Source: Endozoicomonas numazuensis (GTDB lineage: Bacteria; Pseudomonadota; Gammaproteobacteria; Pseudomonadales; Endozoicomonadaceae). Taken from it: DNA of 43,588 bases. Shown here piece after piece: positions 17,477 through 24,586 of the stretch. Under the pieces are notes generated by a model that worked only from the letters and a program-made list of their open reading frames with translations, had not been told where the DNA came from and ran no database searches. The stretch is from positions 999,482 through 1,043,069 of the forward strand of contig NZ_JOKH01000002.1 of NCBI RefSeq assembly GCF_000722635.1. Direction: 5' to 3'. A program made the position numbers and the translations under genes. Position 1 is the first letter of the stretch. Each line of letters opens with the position of its first letter.

Positions 17477-17503
17477 ACGGGGCCATTTGGCCCCGTTTTT
17501 TTA
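17477..17503 (+). terminator. Intrinsic terminator of pstS
   Basis: ACGGGGCC-ATTT-GGCCCCGT forms an 8-bp GC-rich stem followed by seven T residues. The T-tract contains the stop codon of the convergent gene at 17501. Confidence 0.93.
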
Positions 17504-18550
17504 TTTCTGATCCGGCCCCAACCTCTGCCTGAGATTCCTCGCAAAGTACCACCAGAGATCAAACGGTAATACATTGATTAAATGAGCAGCCAGATGCTCT
17601 GGTAAATGATCCGTTTGTTGCTGTGTGGCAGCAGTAAGCTGCGACAAAAAATGACTGACTCCATTTTGAATAGAAACCTGACTCTGCTCAGAACCACCAG
17701 CCATTGAGAGAGCATCTAACAACGATTCAGAAAGCTCGTCGGTTAGAATCTGTTGTCCCTGAATCAACCGAGGTGCCATAGCCTCAATCTCTGAGTTAGA
17801 AGCACGCTCCAGAATATAAAGAAAATTCACCAACTGTTGAAAGGAAAAAAACTCAACCAGTTCATGGGTATACTGCTCAAATACCAGGTCATTTATAGTT
17901 TGATCAAGGCTGGCCGTGGGTTCACTAAAGTGAATCACAAAACCTAATGTCACCAGATAAGCCTGAATGTAGTCCGCTTCTTGTTCGACATGATATTCAT
18001 CCATGGAAAAGTCAAAATCATTGGTTTGTGCATACAGTAGAAATGCCACCAGCAGCCTGGATAACATTCCATCAGCACTACTTTCTGTACTAATCATCAG
18101 AGACAAACGCTTCAAGGCAGACTTTCCCAGCAAGCTGAACAGTAACTCTTGCTTGAGACGCTCCTGCTCCGCTTTCATCGCTCGATATTTTCTTTTTTCT
18201 TCTTCTGTGGAAAAAAAATGTTCTTCCGGAGGCTCGTCGTCCCCACCCGTCAGCCCTAATGACTTTCGAGCCTGAGTTGGGCTGAATGTGCTGCGCCACC
18301 TTAGTGCTGAGGGCCTACTCCCACCCTCAGGCTCACGACTGCCCGATCGACTTGATGAACTGTTAGGAACACTATTTGGCCATTGATGAATTAATGTACT
18401 GTTTTGAAAACTATCCGATGCGCTGAAGGAAAAAGCATTAAGAGACAAAGCCCATTGAGACATCCATATATCTGCAGAAACCAATCCACAATAAAAAATG
18501 CCACATAGACAAGAAGCCCGACGGAACACTCTGGTTAAGAGATTTTCCAA
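17501..18550 (-). CDS. Unknown exported or membrane-anchored protein
   Basis: 349 residues with no domain I recognise. The N terminus (VFRRASCLCGIFYCGLVSA) looks like a signal peptide, with cysteines that could also suggest a lipoprotein, though no clean lipobox is seen. Residues 40-100 are Ser/Pro/Arg-rich and probably disordered. Then comes a charged helix (STEEEKRKYRAMKAEQERLK) and a long helical, Glu-rich and Leu-rich region with many hydrophobic heptads to the end. No catalytic motif stands out. It sits between pstS and the transporter gene with no operon partner. It may be a lineage-specific surface or secreted protein. Confidence 0.7.
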   Translation of the reverse strand: MENLLTRVFRRASCLCGIFYCGLVSADIWMSQWALSLNAFSFSASDSFQNSTLIHQWPNSVPNSSSSRSGSREPEGGSRPSALRWRSTFSPTQARKSLGLTGGDDEPPEEHFFSTEEEKRKYRAMKAEQERLKQELLFSLLGKSALKRLSLMISTESSADGMLSRLLVAFLLYAQTNDFDFSMDEYHVEQEADYIQAYLVTLGFVIHFSEPTASLDQTINDLVFEQYTHELVEFFSFQQLVNFLYILERASNSEIEAMAPRLIQGQQILTDELSESLLDALSMAGGSEQSQVSIQNGVSHFLSQLTAATQQQTDHLPEHLAAHLINVLPFDLWWYFARNLRQRLGPDQK

Positions 18551-18761: not shown

Positions 18762-20084
18762 TCAGAGAATCATGGCGGCAATCCAGCCAAAAATAATCAT
18801 CGGAATGTTGTAGTGCAGAAAGGTTGGAATAACAGAGTCCCAAATATGATCATGTTGATCATCCACATTCAGACCTGCAGTAGGACCAATGGTAGATTCA
18901 GAAACCGGGGAGCCAGCATCACCCACCGCACCTGAAGCCCCCACAAGACAAGCAATGGCCAGCGATGTAAAACCAAGCTCCATACCCAGCGGCACATAAA
19001 GAGTGGCAATGATCGGTACCGTTGAAAATGAAGAACCGATCCCCATCGTAATCAGCAGCCCAACCAAAAGCATAAGAATAGCGGCAAGCCCTTGACTGCC
19101 TCCTACAATAGTCTGTATCTGAGCCACCAGTTCGGGAATATCGCCTGTAGATCGGAGTACTTCAGCAAAGCCTGCGGCAGATATCATGATAAAGCCAAAA
19201 ACGGCCATCATTCTCAGACCTTCATTGAATACTTCATCGGCTTCCCGCCAGCAGACCACTCTCCCCACCACCATGGTAATAAAGCCAAGTGCAGCACCCA
19301 GCACCATTGACCCCGTCATTAGCTGGCTGACCAGCACAAGAACAATGGCAATCAGAGAGGTAATGATGGCGGATTTGCTCAACTGAATATCTTGCTCATG
19401 AATCAGCAGTGTTTCTTCTACCCGATACTTTCTTGGCTTCCTGTAGCTGAAAAAAACAGCTATCAGTAATCCCAGAAACATACCAAATACAGGTATAGCC
19501 ATGGCTAACGGCATCTGACTCATTTCAATATCCAGGCCATTGGCCAGAAGATTGCCACCTAGAATCTGATGCAGATACATACTGCCAAAGCCAATAGGTA
19601 AAAGCATGTATGTAGCTGTAAGACCGAAAGTGAGAAGGCAGGCTACCTGACGACGATCGATCTCCATAGCGCTGAATACCGACAACAGAGGTGGGATCAG
19701 TATAGGAATAAAAGCGATATGGATAGGCACCAGGTTTTGAGAAGAAAATGCCATCAGCACAATTGCCAGAAACAAACTGTATTTCAGTTTTAAATTATTA
19801 TGCGAGCTGTTGCTGCTTTTTACTTTACGGATGATCTTACCCGCCATCCATTCAGGTATCCCTGAACGAGCAATCGCTACGGCAAAAGCCCCTAACATAG
19901 CGTAACTGATGGCAATGCCGACACCACCACCCAAACCTCTGGAAAATGCCTCCAGAGTCTGGATGATATCCAGTCCTCCAATCACTCCTCCGGCCATGGC
20001 ACCCACAAAGAGTGCGAGAACCACATTGACGCGTAACAAACTCAACGCGAGCATGACGACAACCGCCAGAATCACTGCGTTCAT
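18762..20084 (-). CDS. YuiF-type histidine transporter (Na+/H+ antiporter-like, NhaC superfamily)
   Basis: 440 residues from the ATG at 20084 with GGGAA ahead; the frame extends further upstream but without a better start. About 11 to 12 hydrophobic segments are visible. Motifs of the COG2056/YuiF group are FSRGLGGGVGIAISYAMLGA, LVPIHIAFIPILIPPLL, SMYLHQILGGNLL and GASGAVGDAGSPVSEST. The family was annotated as Na+/H+ antiporter, but comparative genomics of T-boxes and attenuators assigned YuiF orthologues to histidine uptake. The His-rich leader found 173 bases upstream supports that substrate independently. Confidence 0.85.
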   Translation of the reverse strand: MNAVILAVVVMLALSLLRVNVVLALFVGAMAGGVIGGLDIIQTLEAFSRGLGGGVGIAISYAMLGAFAVAIARSGIPEWMAGKIIRKVKSSNSSHNNLKLKYSLFLAIVLMAFSSQNLVPIHIAFIPILIPPLLSVFSAMEIDRRQVACLLTFGLTATYMLLPIGFGSMYLHQILGGNLLANGLDIEMSQMPLAMAIPVFGMFLGLLIAVFFSYRKPRKYRVEETLLIHEQDIQLSKSAIITSLIAIVLVLVSQLMTGSMVLGAALGFITMVVGRVVCWREADEVFNEGLRMMAVFGFIMISAAGFAEVLRSTGDIPELVAQIQTIVGGSQGLAAILMLLVGLLITMGIGSSFSTVPIIATLYVPLGMELGFTSLAIACLVGASGAVGDAGSPVSESTIGPTAGLNVDDQHDHIWDSVIPTFLHYNIPMIIFGWIAAMIL

Positions 20085-20224
20085 AAAATTCCCAAATTGT
20101 ATTCTATCGTTTTTACCGCCAGCCACTATCAACAATGGATCATGGGCTATAACGGTACAAGATGATTGTAGTTAATAGATTTATTTTTCCTGCAAATCGA
20201 GAACAGGCTAAACAAGTATTAAAG

Positions 20225-20257
20225 CAGAGATAAATCCCTGAAAAAGCAATCAGGAAT
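20225..20257 (-). promoter_or_regulatory. Candidate histidine attenuator: two mutually exclusive hairpins
   Basis: On the minus strand, ATTCCTGA (20250-20257) can pair with TCAGGGAT (20234-20241), an 8-bp stem starting at the leader stop codon. The same CAGGGA (20235-20240) can instead pair with TCTCTG (20225-20230) around a 4-base loop, followed by CTTTAATACTTGTTT. A ribosome at the leader stop would cover the first segment and favour the second, terminator-like hairpin. A ribosome stalled on the His codons would favour the first. The terminator stem is short and its U-tract weak. Confidence 0.5.
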
Positions 20258-20364
20258 CAATGATGGGAGTGATGATGAGGATGCAGAGGGGCAACAGCAA
20301 TTTGGGACGGCAGTATGAGCGATGGATTACTCATCGTCGATAATATCGATATTTTTGATTGCAT
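20257..20364 (-). CDS. Histidine-rich leader peptide upstream of YuiF-type transporter
   Basis: A 35-codon frame from the ATG at 20364 (GGAAG 8 bases ahead) or 25 codons from the ATG at 20334. It ends LHPHHHSHH and stop, giving six His in the last eight codons. The peptide has no other feature. It ends 173 bases before the YuiF-type gene on the same strand and is followed by alternative hairpins. This is the arrangement of amino-acid leader peptides such as HisL. Too short for standard gene finders. Confidence 0.6.
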   Translation of the reverse strand: MQSKISILSTMSNPSLILPSQIAVAPLHPHHHSHH

Positions 20365-20570
20365 TATTACAGCTTCCGGATGGACTCAACTATCAGAGCC
20401 AAAAATTTTATCAAACTGCATTGAAAAAGCGAGCCAGAGTATTTACATCTTTTCGCGCTTCCTACTAAATACAGCTAGGCTAAACAGCCATGTATCACTT
20501 AATGAACTCATCACGCCAGAAGATTAAATCATTTAAATAGGAATTTGCTGTTACCTGTTTTTTTTCAGTT
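20365..20570. other. Intergenic region between His leader and pst promoter
   Basis: About 200 bases holding the divergent promoters of the histidine leader (minus) and pstC (plus). A 70-codon plus-strand frame at 20315-20527 overlaps the His leader and has no clear ribosome site, so I do not call it a gene. Confidence 0.4.
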
Positions 20571-20588
20571 CTGTCATATTTCTGTAAC
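20571..20588 (+). promoter_or_regulatory. Pho box for pstCAB-phoU
   Basis: CTGTCAT-ATTT-CTGTAAC is a near-consensus PhoB site: the first half is perfect and the second matches five of seven positions at the standard 11-base spacing. It lies 44 bases before the pstC start. Confidence 0.87.
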
Positions 20589-20632
20589 ACATACATTTTA
20601 AGGTACGCTCAAGAATCTCTGCGACCAGTGCC

Positions 20633-22906
20633 ATGTACCAACCAATAATAGAAGACAGCCCTGGTGTCGATTACAACACCCCGGCTCATAAACGTTATCA
20701 GTCACTTCGCTTTCTCAAAGATTACCTGACCCGTTGGGGTGTAGCTGTAGGTGGTCTCGGTGTTATTGCTGCTATTCTGCTGATTTTTATCTACCTTCTT
20801 TACGAAGTTGCACCTTTATTTAAAAGTGCTGAAATAGAACAAACCAGTACCTGGGCACAAACGATTACCGAGAAACAGCGTCCACTCTATCAAAGTATGG
20901 AAGAACAAGCTGAGCTGGCTTTTTCCATCACAACCGATGGTGCTCTGACTTTTTCTTCAACCCGAACCGGAGAGCAGAAATATCGTTATTCCCTGCCCCT
21001 TCCTGCCGGGAGTTCTGTTACTACCATTACCAGCGACCCATCGGATGGAAATCTGCTTGCGGCGGGTCTGAGCAATGGCCAGGTCATTATCTTCAAGCAC
21101 GCTTATCGTATTACCTGGCCTGATGATAAAAGACTGATAACACCTAAGGTGACTTACCCCTATGGTGAGTCAGCCATTGACCTGGTGCCAGATAGTCAGC
21201 CAGTTTCACACCTGAGCATCAGTGACACTGAAGACCAGCTGCTGATCACCGGGCTGGGTGACAATCGGTTGAACATGACTGCTTTTACCAAGGAAGCAGA
21301 TTTCCTGACTGAAGAAGTCACTCTGGAGGAAGAGAGTGTCACCCTGCCTGAAGTGGATGGACGCATTCGAGACGTTCTGATCGCGCCCGATCAACACTGG
21401 CTCTATGTACAATCAGGGTCAGAGAGTCTGACTCTGATTGATATTAGTAACATTAATCAGCCTCATGTAATGTCAGAAACCGACCTGACCACCAGCTCCG
21501 CAAAAGTTACGACCATGACTTTCCTGCTCGGAGGCGCGTCTCTAATGATCGGCGATGACACTGGCATGATCAGTCAATGGTTCATGGTTAGAAACGAACA
21601 AAATGAATGGTCTCTGCAAAGAATTCGTGAGTTCGAGCTGGCTGGAGAACCCATCACCCAGATCGTACCCGAACATCGCCGCAAGGGCTTTCTGGCTGCA
21701 GATGACAAGGGTAATGTTGGTATTTTCTACACTACTGCCAACAGGACGCTACTGACTGAAAGACTGACCGATGGGCCTGTTGAACAACTGGTCATTTCTC
21801 CTCGCAGTAATTACATGCTGATCAGTAGCAATGGCTCTACCGAGTTCTGGAGTGTTGAAAATGAGCACCCGGAAGTCTCCATGTCTGCACTCTGGGGCGA
21901 GGTCTGGTATGAAGGCTATGAGCAGCCAGAGTATATTTGGCAGTCATCCGCTTCAAACAATGATTTTGAGCCAAAGCTTAGCCTGACCCCTCTGGCCTTT
22001 GGTACTCTCAAGGCAGCCTTTTACGCCATGCTGCTGGCGACACCTCTGGCGATTGCCGGAGCCATTTATACGGCCTACTTCATGGCTCCCGCCATGCGTC
22101 GCAAGGTAAAGCCTGTTATTGAATTAATGGAAGCACTGCCCACCGTAATTCTGGGTTTCCTGGCCGGCCTTTGGTTGGCGCCTTTGATCGAGAGCAGCCT
22201 GGCAGGAATATTTGCTCTATTGTTGATTGTTCCCATAGGCATACTGTTGTTTGCTTTTGCCTGGGACTCAATGCCCAGCAGAATTCGCCATGCTATCCCT
22301 GAAGGCTGGCAAGCAGCCCTGCTGATCCCTGTTGTCCTGATCAGTGCCGCTATTGCCATGAATCTCAATGGTACGATTGAGGCCACTCTCTTTAACGGTG
22401 ACCTGAGAGCCTGGCTAACTTCAGAACTTGGTATACCTTATGACCAACGTAATGCTCTGGTTGTGGGTCTGGCTATGGGATTTGCGGTTATACCCACTAT
22501 TTTCTCTATCGCAGAAGACGCCATTTTCAGTGTCCCCAAGCATCTAAGCTATGGCTCTCTGGCACTGGGAGCGACCCCTTGGCAGACACTGATGCGAGTT
22601 GTGTTGCTGACAGCAAGCCCAGGTATTTTCTCTGCCGTAATGATCGGAATGGGCCGTGCTGTAGGTGAAACCATGATTGTACTTATGGCCACCGGTAATA
22701 CCCCCATCATGGATGCCAATATTTTTGAAGGTATGAGAACCCTGGCAGCCAACATTGCTGTCGAAATGCCGGAGTCAGAAGTAGGCAGCAGCCACTATCG
22801 AATTCTGTTCCTTGCCGCACTGGTGCTGTTTTTGTTCACCTTTGTTGTTAACACCGCTGCCGAGATAGTTCGTCATCGACTGCGCAAGAAGTACAGTTCG
22901 CTTTAA
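20633..22906 (+). CDS. pstC: Phosphate ABC transporter permease, long form
   Basis: 757 residues, about twice the E. coli PstC length; long forms occur in Pseudomonas and Vibrio. After one membrane helix (VAVGGLGVIAAILLIFIYLL) a periplasmic-type region of about 390 residues shows repeated strand patterns like a beta-propeller (GALTFSSTRTGEQKYRYSL, LLAAGLSNGQVIIFKHAY). The permease core follows: ALPTVILGFLAGLWLAPL, then SLALGATPWQTLMRVVLLTA, the EAA-type loop that contacts PstB, and MGRAVGETMIVLMATGN. No clear ribosome site precedes the ATG. It is the first gene of the pstC-pstA-pstB-phoU set, behind a Pho box. Confidence 0.95.
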   Translation: MYQPIIEDSPGVDYNTPAHKRYQSLRFLKDYLTRWGVAVGGLGVIAAILLIFIYLLYEVAPLFKSAEIEQTSTWAQTITEKQRPLYQSMEEQAELAFSITTDGALTFSSTRTGEQKYRYSLPLPAGSSVTTITSDPSDGNLLAAGLSNGQVIIFKHAYRITWPDDKRLITPKVTYPYGESAIDLVPDSQPVSHLSISDTEDQLLITGLGDNRLNMTAFTKEADFLTEEVTLEEESVTLPEVDGRIRDVLIAPDQHWLYVQSGSESLTLIDISNINQPHVMSETDLTTSSAKVTTMTFLLGGASLMIGDDTGMISQWFMVRNEQNEWSLQRIREFELAGEPITQIVPEHRRKGFLAADDKGNVGIFYTTANRTLLTERLTDGPVEQLVISPRSNYMLISSNGSTEFWSVENEHPEVSMSALWGEVWYEGYEQPEYIWQSSASNNDFEPKLSLTPLAFGTLKAAFYAMLLATPLAIAGAIYTAYFMAPAMRRKVKPVIELMEALPTVILGFLAGLWLAPLIESSLAGIFALLLIVPIGILLFAFAWDSMPSRIRHAIPEGWQAALLIPVVLISAAIAMNLNGTIEATLFNGDLRAWLTSELGIPYDQRNALVVGLAMGFAVIPTIFSIAEDAIFSVPKHLSYGSLALGATPWQTLMRVVLLTASPGIFSAVMIGMGRAVGETMIVLMATGNTPIMDANIFEGMRTLAANIAVEMPESEVGSSHYRILFLAALVLFLFTFVVNTAAEIVRHRLRKKYSSL

Positions 22907-22921: not shown

Positions 22922-24586
22922 ATGAACAATAAAATAAGTAACTGGTACAAAACTGGCTCTCCCTGGGTTTGGCTGAATGCCGGAGCTGTAGCCATCAGCG
23001 TTATCCTTGTCGTTGGTCTTTTGAGCTTGATTGCTATACGAGGCCTGGGGCACTTCTGGCCGGGGCAAATTCTGGTAGCAGACTATGCCCCACCGAATCA
23101 GGAAAGCAGACTGATCGCCGGGGAAATTTCAGATACCGAATCAGTCTCTGCATCCCGACTGGAAGCTGCAGGCCTGCCGGTTCCGAAAGGTATGGAAACA
23201 CTTACCCGTGATCTTCTGAAAGTGGGTAACAGAGATGTTTCAGGCTCAGATTTTGCCTGGGTCATAGACCTCTGGCTGGAGAACCGCCGTTATCCCGAAA
23301 ACATTGTCGCCCTGGAGCGACGTGAGTGGGGTAACTTCTACGGTTATCTGACCAGCATCAAACAGAATGGAAACATTGTTACTGAAGGCGATGCTGTATG
23401 GCCCGAGTTCCAGAAAAGACTGGATAGAGCTCTGTCTATTTACGATGAAATCTACGCCATTGAAAAGCACGAAATAGGTTCTGTTAATTCCAGGCTTGAG
23501 CGCCTGCGTCTGGAACAACGAGGCCTCGAACTGAACGAAACAGCGACCCCTCAGGCACTGGCCGACATAGAGGCTCAGCGCAAGGTATACCAGGCTGAAT
23601 ATAAGGTTATGGAAGCCAAACTGGGTGATCTTTATGTTGCTTTCAACCGAGATAGTCTGGTTGCCACGACCGTTGATGGCATAGAGATTGAGCAGTCTTT
23701 TGGTAAAATAGTCCGGGCGTATAAGCCTAACGCTATGACACTGCCTCAAAAGATGCTCTTCTATCTCGACAAGGTGGCCGAATTTATTACCGACGACCCC
23801 AGAGAAGCGAACACTGAAGGGGGAGTCTTTCCAGCCATTTTTGGTACCGTCATGATGGTTATTCTTATGTCCATCATTGTGACGCCTTTTGGTGTAATTG
23901 CTGCCGTTTATCTCCGTGAATATGCCAACCAGGGCTGGTTAACCCGAACCATTCGGGTTGCTGTAAATAACCTGGCAGGTGTTCCTTCCATTGTTTACGG
24001 TGTATTCGGTCTCGGTTTCTTTATTTATTTTGCCGGTAGCCAGATCGACCAAGTGTTCTTTCAGGAAGCGCTCCCAGCACCCACTTTCGGTACTCCGGGG
24101 TTACTCTGGGCATCCATTACCCTGGCCTTATTAACACTGCCAGTTGTTATTGTTGCAACTGAAGAAGGCCTGTCACGAATTCCCAGCTCTGTCCGCGAAG
24201 GCAGTCTGGCTCTGGGAGCTACCAAAGCAGAAACTCTCTGGCGAGTGGTTCTGCCTATGGCCAGCCCTGCCATGATGACAGGATTGATTCTTGCTGTTGC
24301 CCGTGCCGCCGGTGAGGTAGCACCTCTCATGCTGGTAGGTGTTGTGAAGCTGGCTCCCAGTTTGCCCCTGGATGGAAACTATCCATTCTTGCATCTGGAT
24401 CAGAAATTCATGCACCTGGGCTTCCATATTTACGATGTGGGCTTCCAGAGTCCAAACGTAGAAGCGGCTCGACCTTTGGTTTATGCCACAGCGCTTTTAC
24501 TGGTTGTTGTTATTGCTGTGCTTAACCTGTCAGCAGTCGCTATTCGCAACCACTTGCGTGAAAAATACAAGAGCCTTGAGGCTTAA
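22922..24586 (+). CDS. pstA: Phosphate ABC transporter permease, long form
   Basis: 554 residues, again a long form. A first helix (GAVAISVILVVGLLSLIAI) is followed by a soluble insert of about 250 residues with a coiled-coil-like part (SRLERLRLEQRGLELNE). The permease core has IVTPFGVIAAVYLREYANQG, VNNLAGVPSIVYGVFGLGFF and the EAA-type SLALGATKAETLWRVVLPMA. It starts 16 bases after the pstC stop with AAGGAAGGAG ahead, so it belongs to the same operon. It forms the channel with PstC. Confidence 0.95.
   Translation: MNNKISNWYKTGSPWVWLNAGAVAISVILVVGLLSLIAIRGLGHFWPGQILVADYAPPNQESRLIAGEISDTESVSASRLEAAGLPVPKGMETLTRDLLKVGNRDVSGSDFAWVIDLWLENRRYPENIVALERREWGNFYGYLTSIKQNGNIVTEGDAVWPEFQKRLDRALSIYDEIYAIEKHEIGSVNSRLERLRLEQRGLELNETATPQALADIEAQRKVYQAEYKVMEAKLGDLYVAFNRDSLVATTVDGIEIEQSFGKIVRAYKPNAMTLPQKMLFYLDKVAEFITDDPREANTEGGVFPAIFGTVMMVILMSIIVTPFGVIAAVYLREYANQGWLTRTIRVAVNNLAGVPSIVYGVFGLGFFIYFAGSQIDQVFFQEALPAPTFGTPGLLWASITLALLTLPVVIVATEEGLSRIPSSVREGSLALGATKAETLWRVVLPMASPAMMTGLILAVARAAGEVAPLMLVGVVKLAPSLPLDGNYPFLHLDQKFMHLGFHIYDVGFQSPNVEAARPLVYATALLLVVVIAVLNLSAVAIRNHLREKYKSLEA

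Follow-up and report, generated by a model that had tools for sequence, protein, structure and literature searches.

Upstream of a gene for a YuiF-type transporter in Endozoicomonas numazuensis lies a short open reading frame (ORF) that ends in a run of histidine codons. The locus raises the question of whether this ORF is a leader that ties the transporter to histidine and, if so, by which step expression would be turned down. We analysed it in a stretch of 43,588 nucleotides of E. numazuensis DNA (the window), together with related loci (numbers beginning with L) from Endozoicomonadaceae, a family of marine, largely animal-associated bacteria, and from outside that family.

The original prediction held that a short minus-strand frame ends LHPHHHSHH-stop. 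This frame is present, with 35 codons (Table 1). It lies before the transporter gene as claimed; the distance, given earlier as 173 bases, is 172 nt from the end of the leader TGA to the yuiF ATG at 20084. When the 30-nt leader end was searched for with up to three mismatches, its sole match in the window was the leader itself, at 20257-20286 (shuffles 0.00). Written as DNA, HHHxHH-stop occurs once in the 6.3-Mb genome. HHxHH-stop was found at two further places in the genome (L130 and L132), in frames of 29 and 18 codons, and no ATG frame of 60 codons starts within 500 nt downstream of either. A looser His pattern matched 507 places, was not frame-bound, and was discarded as uninformative.

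Table 1. Features of the leader and transporter region (positions in the window)
Feature	Position	Strand	Remarks
Leader ORF, 35 codons, MQSKISILSTMSNPSLILPSQIAVAPLHPHHHSHH	20257..20364	minus	ATG 20364-20362, TGA 20259-20257; C-terminus LHPHHHSHH
His-rich codon run, 6 His in 8 codons, directly abutting the stop	20260..20283	minus	Single match in the window
GGAAG, likely RBS of leader ORF	20373..20377	minus	Anti-SD duplex -3.5 kcal/mol
TGATAAAAT, extended -10-like element, tentative	20405..20413	minus	Aligned with TGTTAGAAT and TGTTAAGAT in relatives L002 and L005
Hairpin 1, ATTCCTGA (20257-20250) with TCAGGGAT (20241-20234), beginning inside the leader stop codon	20234..20257	minus	-10.8 kcal/mol predicted
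Second stem, CAGGGA (20240-20235) with TCTCTG (20230-20225)	20225..20240	minus	Present; unsupported as a conserved element
Hairpin 2, CCTGT with GCAGG	20189..20207	minus	Predicted in five-sequence alignment; 5 pairs, no two-sided change
GGGAA, likely RBS of yuiF	20089..20093	minus	Could pair with leader end 20258-20253
yuiF-type transporter gene, 440 aa, presumed regulated gene	18762..20084	minus	Pfam PF03553 E 3.8e-67, PF13726 E 8.5e-30

Upstream of the leader, TGATAAAAT is the best-scoring promoter-like site (6.9); a site between the leader and yuiF scores 7.5, and in L002 and L005 the scoring picks sites other than those aligned with TGATAAAAT. A consensus promoter scan found no promoter-like site before the window's leader or before yuiF. 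Scoring with sigma-70 weights could not tell sites upstream of the leader apart from those downstream, and was set aside.

The domains of the transporter are Na_H_antiporter and Na_H_antiport_2 (Pfam); NCBIfam gave no match for the 440-aa protein. It is 53–58% identical to six loci from the order Bacillales (L061, L070, L086, L105, L117 and L129), the members compared. By its domains and its full-length similarity to these members, the window's transporter fits a YuiF-type histidine permease, histidine transport being its predicted function. The transporter was found in all 38 family genomes examined, and related loci in its alignment include Endozoicomonas acroporae, E. ascidiicola, Kistimonas asteriae and Parendozoicomonas. 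One locus near the top of the list (L054), 59% identical to the window's transporter, lies on a contig labelled as a Sulfurospirillum MAG; either a wrong label or gene transfer could account for this. On the 3′ side of yuiF, a long ORF on the same strand (17501-18550, minus) gave no Pfam or NCBIfam match at E 0.001.

We take 'Ca. Endonucleobacter' to be a member of Endozoicomonadaceae, the window's family. For this organism, a published study names yuiF a histidine permease and describes it as expressed through infection (PMC11521996). In Staphylococcus aureus the YuiF-type permease SAUSA300_0846 is the main histidine importer by uptake assay (PMC10817146), and a further source lists YuiF as a histidine permease, with HisR or T-box control in Firmicutes (PMC9413887). 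The window's genome contains both hisG and urocanase, so that it can probably make and degrade histidine. Its his operon has no frame with at least 3 His in 12 codons within 600 nt 5′ of hisG.

The distribution of the leader was determined in 38 species-level Endozoicomonadaceae genomes, with near-copies among them, taking the best transporter match per genome. An ORF with a His-rich end was found upstream of yuiF in 26 of the 38, representing six of eight genera, and the first base of its stop codon lies 131-306 nt before yuiF in all 26 loci. The proposed tie between a His-codon leader and the YuiF-type transporter thus holds in 26/38 family genomes, and takes a different form in two Pasteurellaceae. 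Close relatives had been singled out as the place to look for a His-rich frame; overall it is present there, and among the ten other genomes of the window's genus it is absent from two (L003 and L004). The leader observed in the window is confirmed as real and conserved. The 38 genomes together contain 12 HHHxHH-stop places, of which nine lie at yuiF by coordinates: eight in the window's genus (one per genome, the window's included) and one in genome G026. The three places away from yuiF are G035:C556, G021:C20 and G022:C381 (L163, L164 and L173).

Twelve family loci were scored as leaderless (L003, L004, L018, L022, L030, L031, L034, L035, L037, L038, L039 and L040). These include L018, with only 321 nt of contig upstream, and L034, where a frame ending VHHH-stop (4 His) has no start codon inside. 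Second transporter copies, present in four genomes (L036 and L041-L043), are also without a leader. 5′ of yuiF in L003 and L004, the end of an unrelated frame replaces the His leader and runs into the same TGA; the sequence is kept from the stop onward, yet some pairs of the hairpin at that place are broken. In L022 the leader ORF is missing, while CACCATTGATC, some 236 nt upstream of yuiF, and the stretch that follows are kept, as if the ORF had been excised immediately ahead of its last codons. Leaderless rows turn up throughout the main clades of the transporter tree. The leader label, which on this tree includes the two Pasteurellaceae, was not clustered beyond shuffles: it required 12 changes against a shuffled mean of 13.3, and 140 of 500 shuffles were as low. 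We read the leader as probably old and lost several times, a direction that the tree does not prove.

Chance was assessed by a residue control, in which ORFs of 12-60 codons that start with ATG and lie within 400 nt of yuiF were scored for at least six of one residue in their last 12 codons. His reached this count in 22 of 38 family loci, and every other residue in none. The control counts 24 leaders rather than the full 26, because in L015 and L019 the leader starts more than 400 nt away. With the threshold lowered to 4, no His-rich frame appeared on the antisense strand or in the next 400 nt upstream (37 loci). Outside the family we used 81 loci (75 genome-contig loci plus L044-L049; L050-L053 and L057, repeats of family genomes, were excluded), and of these, three loci reached 4 His, two reached 5 and none reached 6. 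In Parashewanella curva (L083) a 13-codon ORF with 5 His, MTHIFHHFHDQHQ, lies about 180 nt before yuiF and could be another independent leader or a chance occurrence.

The 26 leaders were then compared with one another. All have an in-frame ATG, with anti-SD energies from -1.3 to -6.4 kcal/mol, and when the start with the best anti-SD energy is taken, 25 are 34-50 codons long and the one in L010 has 15. Every leader ends in two His codons, followed by TGA in 23 and TAA in three. Two to seven more His stand before this terminal pair, and the residues that break up the run differ (P, S, L, R, Q, A, T, F, Y). The first two thirds of the peptide, judged by eye, are alike within clades only. Among leaders of one clade the His codons alternate between CAT and CAC. 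A comparison of leader ends over 360 codon pairs, which are not independent, gave 33 synonymous and 55 non-synonymous differences. Those touching His codons were 20 synonymous and 16 non-synonymous, with none at first positions; by inspection, the 16 trace to one change in L015 and one common to L021 and L024, counted repeatedly. These differences therefore indicate pressure to keep His, and not the rest of the peptide. At the level of sequence, the coding mark is confined to the His codons. The locus has one mark of an amino-acid leader-peptide attenuator, a short ORF with codons for the residue handled by the downstream gene.

RNA structure at the leader end was examined by single-strand folding, to which all hairpin energies given here refer. 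At -10.8 kcal/mol, the window's 32-nt stretch containing stem 1 is more stable than any other compared window of the locus. In 24 of 26 leader loci the 32-nt window from the stop codon has a predicted fold of -3.3 kcal/mol or lower, with differing sequences; in L012 and L014 this fold is worth only -0.3 kcal/mol. The predicted hairpin lies within about 10 nt of the leader stop in 24/26. The share of other windows of the same locus that are equally stable averaged 0.17 over the 26 loci and 0.16 over 14 clade representatives, compared with an expectation of 0.5. When the same 45 nt were shuffled for comparison, z was below -1.5 in seven of the 26 and at least -0.1 in eight (mean -0.98). In a five-sequence alignment of the nearest relatives, the three leader-bearing genomes keep all eight pairs of stem 1, and every one of the four broken cells belongs to the leaderless L003 or L004. 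The first stem of the original prediction thus stands in the leader-bearing sequences, and as a widespread hairpin, and fails in two relatives that lack the leader. The pair pattern, in these few sequences, suggests a link between hairpin 1 and the leader.

Searches for known histidine leaders gave a different picture in another family. Rfam returned nothing for the leader, either in the window at the gathering threshold or in 20050-20640 at E up to 10, where five weak matches fell below gathering scores. RF00514 (His_leader, the E. coli-type his operon attenuator) had no match in the seven of 26 leader loci submitted (L001, L008, L012, L013, L016, L026 and L028). The yuiF leaders of Haemophilus quentini (L090, MNIIRRHHHHHSTE) and Rodentibacter (L098, MNIIRRHHRHHLTE), by contrast, match RF00514 with 86 and 78.9 bits. 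Like RF00514, all of these leaders have a short ORF whose run of His codons stands upstream of a histidine gene, and in these two Pasteurellaceae the gene that follows belongs to the same family, yuiF. The Pasteurellaceae leaders have peptides of 14 codons that continue past the His run, and a 12-bp stem plus T-rich tail, whereas the endozoicomonad leaders are longer, end His-His-stop and are without such a stem. One gene family therefore stands under two unlike histidine leaders. With an intrinsic terminator in Pasteurellaceae and none in Endozoicomonadaceae, the pair offers a natural comparison of attenuation output steps, and shows that leaders of this kind can escape a covariance-model search.

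Vitreschak et al., in 2004, reportedly predicted histidine attenuators before yuiF orthologues and his genes in proteobacteria, which likewise amounts to histidine-dependent attenuation of a transporter gene in that group. We know of no Endozoicomonadaceae among those predictions. In the literature searched, no paper joined Endozoicomonas with 'leader peptide' or 'transcription attenuation', and among the titles listed for yuiF with histidine, for leader peptides with Rho and for histidine-transporter attenuators, none concerned the endozoicomonad leader. Histidine attenuation of yuiF was itself predicted earlier; the present analysis adds a conserved leader from another family, without an Rfam structure match, without an intrinsic terminator and ending His-His-stop. 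In tnaC, an untranslated stretch without an intrinsic terminator follows the leader stop. The endozoicomonad leader resembles tnaC and other Rho-linked leader ORFs in this respect, and in having a sensing end that abuts the stop. Two sources describe tnaC as responding to free tryptophan (PMC8429421, PMC3902921). The endozoicomonad leader differs from tnaC in having a codon run, and Rho is for it a candidate only.

The original prediction described a classical attenuator, with two mutually exclusive stems of which the second, CAGGGA:TCTCTG, would be the intrinsic terminator. Both stems can be drawn on the sequence, and stem 1 is stable. The second stem, however, is paired in only 80% of 30 cells (five close sequences), with no change on both sides, and no U-tract follows it. 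A terminator scan of the minus strand between the leader and yuiF found no terminator-like site, so that the caveat of a weak terminator, entered with the prediction, was right. Among the 26 leader loci, a stem of 5-6 bp with a T-rich tail occurs in five (L010, L011, L021, L024 and L033), and a stem longer than 6 bp followed by T in none, against 12 bp in both Pasteurellaceae leaders under the same scan. Alternative RNA structures with an intrinsic terminator are thus not found in the endozoicomonad leaders. Together with the missing RF00514 match in the window, this leaves the second stem without standing as a terminator, and makes classical attenuation at this locus decidedly improbable.

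We consider it likely instead that the ORF is a histidine-codon leader controlling a YuiF-type histidine transporter by attenuation, with a turning-down step other than an intrinsic terminator. For a run of His codons ahead of a gene of this kind, the best explanation is that it senses charged tRNA-His. The leader ties the Endozoicomonadaceae transporter to histidine from the regulatory side, independently of annotation, and probably allows the cell to turn on the transporter when histidine is short. We infer leader translation, ribosome stalling, a direction of control and an output step. When charged tRNA-His is scarce, the ribosome would slow or stall on the His codons abutting the stop and cover the RNA at and past it, and yuiF would be expressed. 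Because the His run abuts the stop, a ribosome held there would cover the 5′ arm of the hairpin. When histidine is plentiful, the ribosome would finish and leave, the hairpin at the stop could form, and yuiF would be turned down. Turning down would more likely occur by Rho-dependent termination in the untranslated stretch of 128-303 nt or, in some lineages and perhaps in the window's, by pairing of the leader end with the yuiF RBS.

The same end of the ORF could be read as an arrest peptide of the TnaC kind, in which the nascent C-terminus and free histidine stall the ribosome at the stop and induce yuiF when histidine is abundant. His-His stands directly before the stop in 26/26 leaders, the stop is TGA in 23/26, Leu precedes the first His of the run in 22/26 (counted by eye), and with urocanase in the genome histidine may serve as food. 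TnaC-type arrest peptides, however, keep key residues some 13 to 25 positions before their end. In the endozoicomonad leaders the residues at this distance, compared by eye, change from clade to clade and those interrupting the His run vary, and a simple codon sensor can do without all this; we regard arrest as unlikely. Starvation control of yuiF is the simpler reading. Were the ORF instead a small His-rich protein with a role of its own, such as metal binding, and tied to yuiF by neighbourhood only, a tail of 4 to 9 His could indeed bind metal. Against this, the N-terminal part is unlike between clades (by eye), the stop always begins at its limited distance before yuiF in the 26 loci, and the window's genome has no second HHHxHH-stop place, which together make an independent protein very improbable. 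A broader proposal, to which we give somewhat less than an even chance, is that a family-wide histidine leader evolved apart from RF00514 and acts via the ribosome at the leader end without an intrinsic terminator, either as a codon-starvation Rho switch or as a histidine-sensing arrest peptide at the stop.

Both candidate output steps of the preferred histidine-codon leader were examined. The duplex of the yuiF GGGAA with the leader end has a predicted energy of -12.6 kcal/mol and a shuffle fraction of 0.010; seven of 47 other windows in the locus are equally good. Pairing between leader end and yuiF RBS reached a shuffle fraction below 0.05 in seven of 26 loci (L001, L008, L009, L010, L011, L012 and L013). 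The consensus fold of clade L008-L011 draws it as a nearly invariant 10-pair helix, consistent in this clade only. Removing the RNA to 18 nt past the stop lowered the opening cost of the yuiF RBS by 8 kcal/mol in the window's locus and by at least 2 kcal/mol in seven of 26 loci, with little effect elsewhere. Because the window's relatives L002 and L005 lack the pairing, RBS occlusion was not taken as a family rule.

For Rho we compared base composition. C minus G was 0.036 in the 26 leader stretches, -0.010 in the 12 leaderless family loci and 0.026 in 77 outside loci (L090, L098, L048 and L049 left out); C exceeded G in 23/26, 5/12 and 53/77, respectively. Taken as a Rho sign, C-over-G and YC content gave no clear difference between leader stretches and outside loci; the C minus G values of the two are similar, and there is therefore no clear sign of Rho.

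Two short motifs were noted in passing. CCATAG occurs 33-102 nt before yuiF in nine of the 26 leader loci, from several genera (L005, L006, L007, L013, L026, L027, L028, L029 and L033), and in L028 it forms one arm of a predicted hairpin. On the plus strand of the window, CTGTCATATTTCTGTAAC at 20571-20588 resembles a Pho box; 44 nt beyond it begins a pair of divergent genes, 20633-22906 and 22922-24586, whose products have BPD_transp_1 domains and which are likely pstC and pstA.
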